From NCBI RefSeq assembly GCF_900112285.1, contig NZ_FOKZ01000009.1, positions 107,567 through 171,566 on the forward strand: 64,000 bases of DNA, written 5' to 3'. Of the stretch, positions 4,716 through 5,702 are shown in pieces. This DNA is from Polaromonas sp. OV174. Lineage in GTDB: Bacteria; Pseudomonadota; Gammaproteobacteria; Burkholderiales; Burkholderiaceae_C. Every line of letters starts with the position of its first letter. Position 1 is the first letter of the stretch. The notes under the pieces were generated by a model. It saw only the letters and a list, made by a program, of their open reading frames with translations. It did not search any database and was not told the origin of the DNA. A program made the position numbers and the translations under genes.

Positions 4716-5702
4716 GTGGGGTTTGGGTTTTATAGAGGCAGATTCGCACCCTCACCGACCGGCCCGCTGCACGCCGGCTCACTGGTCGCAGCACTGGCCA
4801 GCTGGCTGGATGCGCGGGCGCACCACGGCCAGTGGCTGATTCGGATTGAGGACGTGGACACGCCGCGCTGCGTGCCCGGAGCGGCACAAACCATTCTTGA
4901 GCAGTTGGCGGCCTGCGGCCTGCTGCCAGACGAAGCACCGGTTTACCAGTCGCAGCGCTCTGCCCTCTACCAGCAAGCCTTGAATCAACTCCTTGGCCAG
5001 GGCCAGGCCTATCCCTGCGCCTGCACGCGCCAGGACATCGCCCAGGCGCTGGCCGCTGCCGGGCAGTCGCGGCAACGCCATGGCGAACTGGTCTACCCCG
5101 GCACCTGCCGCCTGGGCCTGCAAGGCCGGGCGGCGCGGGCCTGGCGCTTTCACACCGAAAAATTTAAGCAAAATACGCCTCCAGCCCAATCAGCACAAGC
5201 GCAAGAAGCTACAAAAACAGTAGCAATCAGCATTCAAACAACGACCTCGTCGACGTCTCAGGTGCAGTGGCAAGACCGGCTGCTGGGCGCGCAAACGCAG
5301 AATGTCGACCGCGAGGTCGGCGACTTCGTGCTCAAGCGGGCCGATGGTTTCTGGGCCTACCAGCTGGCCGTGGTGGTGGACGACGCCGAGCAAGGGATCA
5401 CCAACATCGTGCGCGGTCAGGATCTGGCCGACAACACGGCGCGGCAAATCTTGCTGCAGCGCGCCCTAGGCCTGCCCACGCCGCGCTACCTGCACACGCC
5501 GCTGGTGCTGGGAGCGAACGGCGAAAAGCTGTCCAAGCAAAACGGCGCCCAGGCGCTGGACACCCGCCAGCCGCTGCAACTGTTGCAGCAAGCTGGCCTG
5601 GCGCTGGGCCTGCCAGGCGGCATACAAGCCGACACACCGGCCGACTGGTTAGAGCAAGCCGTGCCGCTGTGGGCAAGCCGACTAAAATTGGCGGGTGATT
5701 GA
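4716..5702 (+). CDS. gluQ: Glutamyl-Q tRNA(Asp) synthetase
   Basis: Truncated GluRS-like enzyme that attaches glutamate to queuosine at position 34 of tRNA(Asp). Visible are the HIGH-type motif (RFAPSPTGPLHAGS), the zinc ligands (YPCACTR and YPGTC), the DFVLKRADGFWAYQLAVVVDD block and the KMSKS-type loop (KLSKQNG). There is no ATG; candidate starts are TTG 4698, GTG 4710 and GTG 4716, and I favour 4716 because GAGG lies eight bases before it. Oddity: a roughly 30-residue Ala/Gln/Thr-rich insert sits before the QWQDRLLG segment and coincides with a dispersed repeat read in frame (5170-5226). The end overlaps trmB by eight bases. Confidence 0.92.
   Translation: MGFGFYRGRFAPSPTGPLHAGSLVAALASWLDARAHHGQWLIRIEDVDTPRCVPGAAQTILEQLAACGLLPDEAPVYQSQRSALYQQALNQLLGQGQAYPCACTRQDIAQALAAAGQSRQRHGELVYPGTCRLGLQGRAARAWRFHTEKFKQNTPPAQSAQAQEATKTVAISIQTTTSSTSQVQWQDRLLGAQTQNVDREVGDFVLKRADGFWAYQLAVVVDDAEQGITNIVRGQDLADNTARQILLQRALGLPTPRYLHTPLVLGANGEKLSKQNGAQALDTRQPLQLLQQAGLALGLPGGIQADTPADWLEQAVPLWASRLKLAGD
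5170..5226 (-). repeat. Dispersed TAGCTGCTTGCGC repeat, copy inside gluQ
   Basis: Read on the minus strand this is a full copy of the window's dispersed repeat (GCTACTGTTTTTGTAGC, then TTCTTGCGC, then GATTGGGCTGGAGGC). Its closest relative is the intergenic copy at 11505-11562: 32 of 35 bases match by hand from GCCTCCAGCCCAATCA onward. It is translated in frame as part of GluQ and accounts for most of the extra loop. Confidence 0.85.

Follow-up and report, generated by a model that had tools for sequence, protein, structure and literature searches.

Does the gene for tRNA glutamyl-Q(34) synthetase (GluQRS) in Polaromonas sp. OV174 contain a copy of a dispersed repeat that is read as part of the enzyme? 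The gene, gluQ, occupies positions 4698 to 5702 on the plus strand of the 64,000-nucleotide stretch of DNA analysed here (the window). Its open reading frame (ORF) matched the GluQRS family NF004313 of NCBIfam with 479.9 bits against a cut-off of 380, and also TIGR03838; the family match begins at residue 12, and the exact start codon is uncertain. The initial annotation of this locus had proposed that a betaproteobacterial repeat was inserted in frame in gluQ, as Rickettsia palindromic elements (RPE) are in other genes, and this proposal is supported by copy number, by reading frame and by presence and absence among relatives. Our interpretation, in which we have high confidence, is that the insert is a dispersed repeat of ~72 bp that occurs at least 150 times in the genome and is read here as 24 codons. 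It likely entered the gene once, in an ancestor of part of the genus, and has likely been passed on vertically ever since as a tolerated loop that is predicted to be disordered and exposed at the surface.

The element copy in gluQ spans positions 5160 to 5231 on the plus strand, a segment of 72 bp that provides 24 codons in phase 0 (GluQ residues 155 to 178). It scored 76.3 bits (E 5e-20) against a covariance model that defines the element as 72 positions; the model was built from 29 of 30 copies, with L016 left out as misaligned, and with three base pairs it is effectively a sequence profile. The repeat had originally been placed at 5170 to 5226, which is the right location but slightly short of the extent given by the 29-copy model. 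The resemblance to an intergenic repeat that had first drawn attention to the insert was confirmed: in the best block, positions 5177 to 5211 are identical to positions 11513 to 11547 at 32 of 35 bases, whereas 20 shuffled windows reached at most 20 to 23 identical bases. The runner-up site for this block in the real window shares 27 bases and lies on the minus strand. Over their whole length, the gluQ copy and the intergenic copy (11496 to 11567, plus strand) are identical at 50 of 72 bases. A native variable loop with chance similarity to the repeat is ruled out by the shuffled controls and by the recurrence of the peptide in unrelated genes. The gluQ copy has a G+C content of 0.43, compared with 0.65 for the gene, and A+T-rich DNA spans GluQ residues ~152 to 190. 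The loop in the window's GluQ is 37 residues long versus 6 to 14 in orthologues that lack the insert, a difference of 23 to 31 residues, and the element accounts for 24 codons.

A BLAST search of the genome that contains the window (G000; 4.53 Mb in 61 contigs) gave 41 matches, and the model placed the number of element copies at 150 or more, as all 150 candidates scored, from 3081 first-look candidates, matched at E ≤ 8.5e-8. With filters off, the window alone contained 12 copies at E ≤ 0.0013, including nine at E ≤ 6e-8; by extrapolation, and if the window is typical, a genome would hold some 600 to 850 copies. The intergenic copy at 11496 to 11567 had the top score among the 150 copies scored (84.3 bits). 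On the minus strand, copies were located at 29092 to 29163 (73.4 bits, not ORF-internal), 54977 to 55044 (51.8 bits), 57904 to 57975 (47.1 bits) and 25645 to 25716 (46.1 bits), with weaker copies at 44117 to 44188 (36.3 bits, E 2e-8), 52708 to 52779 (36.2 bits, E 2e-8) and 35074 to 35145 (34.8 bits, E 6e-8). A weak match at 40149 to 40220 on the same strand (19.9 bits, E 0.0013) lies in a long ORF in the -1 frame and may reflect chance or a very old insertion. The element consensus, derived from 126 of 129 non-internal copies (three were excluded for length), is ATTTTTAAATAAAATAGGCCTCTAGCCCAATAAGGACGGGCGCAAGCAGCTATTAAATTAATAGCAATTAAG; its G+C content is 0.35, and the 12 window copies range from 0.38 to 0.54. 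A further 27 peptide-only matches were excluded from all counts. Elsewhere in G000, two copies on opposite strands, C18:268647-268718 (minus) and 268795-268866 (plus), lie 76 bases apart in L164; no other pair of the 150 scored copies is separated by less than 400 bases.

To count as internal to a gene, a copy had to lie in a coding ORF that was stop-free and extended for at least 15 codons, with a positive codon-usage score, on both sides of the copy. The score was trained on stretches around copies, and the gene calls are our own rather than those of an annotation. By these criteria, 21 of 150 copies were ORF-internal versus 1981 of 3000 random windows, which were drawn from the stretches around copies and not from the whole genome. 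The frame of the 21 internal copies was strongly biased: 14 were read in +0, the strand and frame used in gluQ, followed by -1 (three), +1 (two), +2 (one) and -0 (one). The 154 stop-free frames of the other 129 copies were distributed as -1 (59), -0 (40), +0 (33), +2 (18) and +1 (4), so that openness alone predicts 21% in +0 (33/154) versus the 67% observed (p 1e-5); random windows were distributed evenly across the six frames. The repeat is thus read within coding regions other than gluQ, as the initial annotation required, and it occupies several unrelated host genes and the +0 frame more often than chance would predict. We also considered and rejected C-terminal extensions: a coding frame enters 26 of 129 non-internal copies, with no clear frame preference.

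Host genes were named by their best NCBIfam match. Besides gluQ, the +0 hosts encode DapE (dapE), DNA polymerase III gamma/tau (dnaX), glucose-6-phosphate isomerase (PGI; pgi), heptosyltransferase I (waaC), HrpA (hrpA) and a CobU-type adenosylcobinamide kinase. Four matched families below the curated cut-offs (lipid IV(A) KDO transferase, a NuoF-like protein, a HemD-type uroporphyrinogen-III synthase and a weak GMC-type match), and three had no family match. The seven internal copies in other frames lie in genes for ThiL, MoeA, HscB, UvrD (below cut-off) and MurU and in two genes without a family. Two +0 candidates, C15:101063 and C44:58077, fell under the threshold and were excluded from the internal count.

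Translated in the gluQ frame, the consensus reads IFK*NRPLAQ*GRAQAAIKLIAIK, and the gluQ copy is stop-free in the same frame (KFKQNTPPAQSAQAQEATKTVAIS). Phase-0 stops were absent from all 71 gluQ, dapE and pgi copies, each of which was taken from an open ORF, whereas 31 of 126 non-internal copies were stop-free in that phase. The -1 frame is often open and encodes a hydrophobic, Cys-containing peptide, and yet it is under-used among internal copies, which suggests selection on the peptide. These observations fit a scheme in which insertions would land genome-wide and those inside genes would mostly be purged by selection. The survivors would mostly be copies read in the single orientation and frame that encode a hydrophilic Ala/Gln/Ser-rich peptide, and would sit where the fold has room for additional residues.

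The AlphaFold model of GluQ (36 sequences) had a mean pLDDT of 88.2, and residues 165 to 184, between strands 148-151 and 188-193, fell below 50; the insert is therefore predicted to be a disordered loop beside a confident core. Foldseek with the GluQ model ranked Escherichia coli GluQRS first (4a91) and sixth (1nzj). The HMMER alignment to 1nzj was broken at query residues 116 to 189, where the E. coli chain has 31 residues; that chain lacks the insert segment. For DapE, ~29 residues are absent at the insert from the best chain of known structure. In PGI, the element replaces a native segment and adds no length relative to solved structures. Intact ORFs, scores against curated families and purifying selection on the flanks together suggest that the GluQ enzyme has probably not been destroyed by the insert, as had been proposed.

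Presence and absence of the insert were followed through the genus. GluQ was matched in 55 of 61 genomes; 52 sequences were read, with three partial ones left out, and 51 were placed in the tree, as L310 was too short. The GluQ loop was long in 31 of the 51 and measured 6 to 14 residues in the other 20. The model detected an element copy in 29 of the 31 long-loop gluQ genes at E ≤ 1, of which 25 also passed E ≤ 0.01; the 20 short-loop genes gave no match. The number of elements in the genome followed the same division: all 31 genomes with the insert had at least 19, and 17 of the 20 short-loop genomes had five or fewer. Relatives without the repeat therefore lack the extra GluQ residues, as the initial proposal required. 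The remaining three short-loop genomes (G081, G091 and G092) are rich in the repeat, the counts for the three being 35, 74 and at least 81. The association between insert and element count gave a Fisher probability of 8e-11 with kinship ignored; phylogeny-corrected pairs stood at two or three to none in agreement, too few for significance. Two individual loops were also noted. In L289 (G092), a relative close to the window (85% identity), the short loop reads SHESN and, by eye, may be a remnant of a partly deleted element. In L299 (G058), the element plus ~30 further residues make a 58-residue loop.

Two further hosts were compared in the same way. DapE was matched in 48 genomes and read in 30, of which 27 carried the element peptide (e.g., NLWAKFEGFRPAAQSGKAQGAIESIA) and three (G088, G059 and G061) did not. 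PGI was matched in 54 genomes and read in 30, with the loop filled in 26 and unfilled in G088, G081, G114 and G108. At E ≤ 0.01, the model recovered 25 of 27 dapE copies and 23 of 26 pgi copies, and it gave no match in the seven empty genes; copies that it did not detect were classed by length and peptide. Each of the three genes thus has one fixed element site in the genus, which is either filled or empty. G091 and G092 have the dapE insert and lack the gluQ insert, indicating that the two sites behave independently.

We estimated the relative age of the inserts from Nei-Gojobori counts, using pairs with a flank pS of <0.5 (gluQ, 121; dapE, 202; pgi, 86). Insert and flank pS were 0.416 and 0.425 in gluQ, 0.448 and 0.434 in dapE, and 0.406 and 0.417 in pgi. 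The age of the insert therefore roughly matches that of each species split, and the agreement in three genes favors vertical inheritance over recent re-insertion. This result bears on the alternative that gluQ is a hot spot, into which the element has been inserted repeatedly and independently at the same site in different lineages. The gluQ tree requires at least seven gains or losses of the insert, five of them forced, with gain indistinguishable from loss, so that a single clean gain does not describe its history, and element-like loops occur at this place in more distant genera, as described below. However, within the genus the synonymous divergence of the insert equals that of its flanks in all three genes, and frame and site agree; we therefore regard repeated insertion as unlikely and prefer a single ancestral insertion.

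The same comparisons addressed selection on the inserted residues. Insert omega was 0.81 in gluQ (column bootstrap, 0.64 to 1.04), 0.44 in dapE (0.27 to 0.73) and 0.51 in pgi (0.39 to 0.61), the intervals being rough because pairs are not independent; flank omega was 0.24, 0.15 and 0.15, respectively. In each gene, insert omega lay above every flank window of the same size (12 in gluQ, 14 in dapE and 19 in pgi). Paralogous non-internal copies in phase 0 had a pN/pS of 0.98. These data show that selection on the inserts is relaxed, with constraint not absent in dapE and pgi and with gluQ near neutral. The lower values of dapE and pgi relative to the non-internal paralogues would be expected if the loop had been domesticated, that is, if it were now useful in interaction, stability or regulation and kept by selection. 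Given that all three inserts are less constrained than any comparable part of their flanks, that gluQ is close to neutrality and that several relatives do without the insert, domestication seems to us improbable. Omega values below 1 in dapE and pgi are also those of a translated segment. Together with the uninterrupted frame in 71 of 71 copies, they make it scarcely credible that the functional enzyme is freed of the insert, whether by excision from the RNA, by translational bypassing or through protein splicing, and nothing was found that speaks for such removal.

A different possibility is that the element acts in genes as DNA or RNA, through mRNA structure or as a protein-binding site, and that the peptide is a by-product. 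The gluQ copy ends in a small hairpin (GCTAC/GTAGC, 5208 to 5224, plus strand), and this 3' hairpin of 5 to 6 bp was 90.8% paired among 29 copies. Covariation, however, barely exceeded that of shuffles, and single-strand folding on the plus strand gave z scores of -2.1 and -0.8 with the short 3' hairpin as the only structure. Pairing at positions 4 and 5 of the hairpin was 0.83 in non-internal copies but 0.35-0.67 in coding orthologues, where the frame was kept, and a strong frame bias would not be expected of a nucleic acid signal. We therefore rejected a conserved RNA hairpin as weak and partly decaying in coding copies, and we consider a DNA or RNA role very unlikely in comparison with toleration of the peptide. 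A search of Rfam with window positions 4600 to 12000 returned nothing at the element and one chance-level match elsewhere. No terminal inverted repeats were evident by eye in the consensus, and the empty sites have diverged too far to reveal a target-site duplication. As a candidate mover, a RAYT/Y1 transposase was rejected: G000 has one Y1-type transposase-like match, L341 (C25:64817-65137), with no element copy within 1.5 kb, and members of the Y1 family were found in 60 of the 61 genomes of the genus, irrespective of the presence of the repeat.

The element is also found beyond the genus. Of 80 named genomes with GluQ, the test covered 56; element matches were present in 12 and a long loop judged by eye to be element-like in 12, and 11 of these coincided. 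The mismatches were L091, with a loop and no element match, and L032, with two matches and no loop; L036 had one element match in its genome. At E ≤ 1, the model detected the gluQ copy in seven of the 12 named loci (the match in L072 lies outside GluQ), and the loops of the other five, which it misses, are candidates only. The nearest named GluQ relative, from Polaromonas jejuensis (74%), has the GluQ insert and a genome with at least 150 element copies. Several further records, Comamonas and Variovorax among them, have long GluQ loops with an element-like peptide; in some Comamonas these are shifted by several residues. In the wider family, at least 95 of 299 genomes and at least 53 of 141 genera had matches at E ≤ 1e-6, based on 16 scored candidates per genome and stricter filters. 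The intergenic copy had no match in plasmid and phage collections at E ≤ 0.01. In two Paraburkholderia loci (L104 and L109), the GluQ loop carries unrelated Thr/His/Asp-rich stretches, indicating that the site tolerates different insertions.

To our knowledge, most known cases of housekeeping genes with in-frame repeats come from Rickettsia and Wolbachia, whose small populations make drift an obvious explanation. The present case extends such behavior to betaproteobacteria that we take to be free-living. It concerns core enzymes whose homologues have solved structures; the insert is present in some members of one genus and absent from others, and its relative age has been measured. Whether such insertions are simply tolerated or supply material for new protein functions is a long-standing question, which can be tested directly here in enzymes with simple assays. 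A broader and more speculative view, which we put forward tentatively as a possibility rather than an expectation, is that this repeat, spread throughout a family of Burkholderiales, is a reusable 24-codon module. Its one-frame copies would now be permanent, selectively retained segments of many core enzymes (gluQ, dapE, pgi, dnaX, waaA, waaC and hemD) across genera, and would continue to supply new protein segments in free-living bacteria.

We found no description of the 72-bp element in the open-licence literature, where the only betaproteobacterial repeat found with copies inside genes was BRE. BRE is described as a repeat scattered through betaproteobacterial genomes, those of Polaromonas and Rhodoferax among them, with full-length copies of 75 to 91 bp, a G+C content of 63.7 to 78.9% in Bordetella, sometimes tandem copies, and at most 29 copies, that maximum being in Polaromonas JS666 (PMC3110155). 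Some BRE copies lie wholly within coding sequences (PMC3110155), and part of the general idea has therefore already been seen in this class. The present element differs in its 72 positions, its consensus of ~35% G+C and its 150 or more copies, a distinction drawn from length, composition and copy number, and the two may be related. MITEs are mentioned as found in Polaromonas (Mattes 2008, cited in PMC10969869), and the element may have been noted earlier among them. Its high copy number, short length and small hairpin recall REP/RAYT systems, but no GTAG/CGTC tag was seen by eye, and the element showed no association with the genome's one Y1 transposase match. PARCEL, as outlined in the cited source, comprises tandem amphipathic repeat domains, coding repeats with dyad symmetry among unrelated proteins (PMC2996958), whereas the hosts read here have a single element copy per protein. 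The closest parallel is with RPE and their counterparts in Wolbachia and Methanocaldococcus, which in the accounts consulted are short dispersed repeats that occupy intergenic DNA as well as unrelated housekeeping genes, where they are read in frame, typically at places that the fold tolerates (PMC10969869, PMC2229807, PMC2996958). The analogy with RPE drawn in the initial annotation holds for behavior and not for form, the element being 72 bp long versus about 105 to 150 bp, with a short 3' hairpin in place of a full-length palindrome or terminal inverted repeats. Its host is a betaproteobacterium, of another class and apparently free-living rather than intracellular, and what the element has in common with RPE is many dispersed copies and in-frame copies inside unrelated conserved genes.
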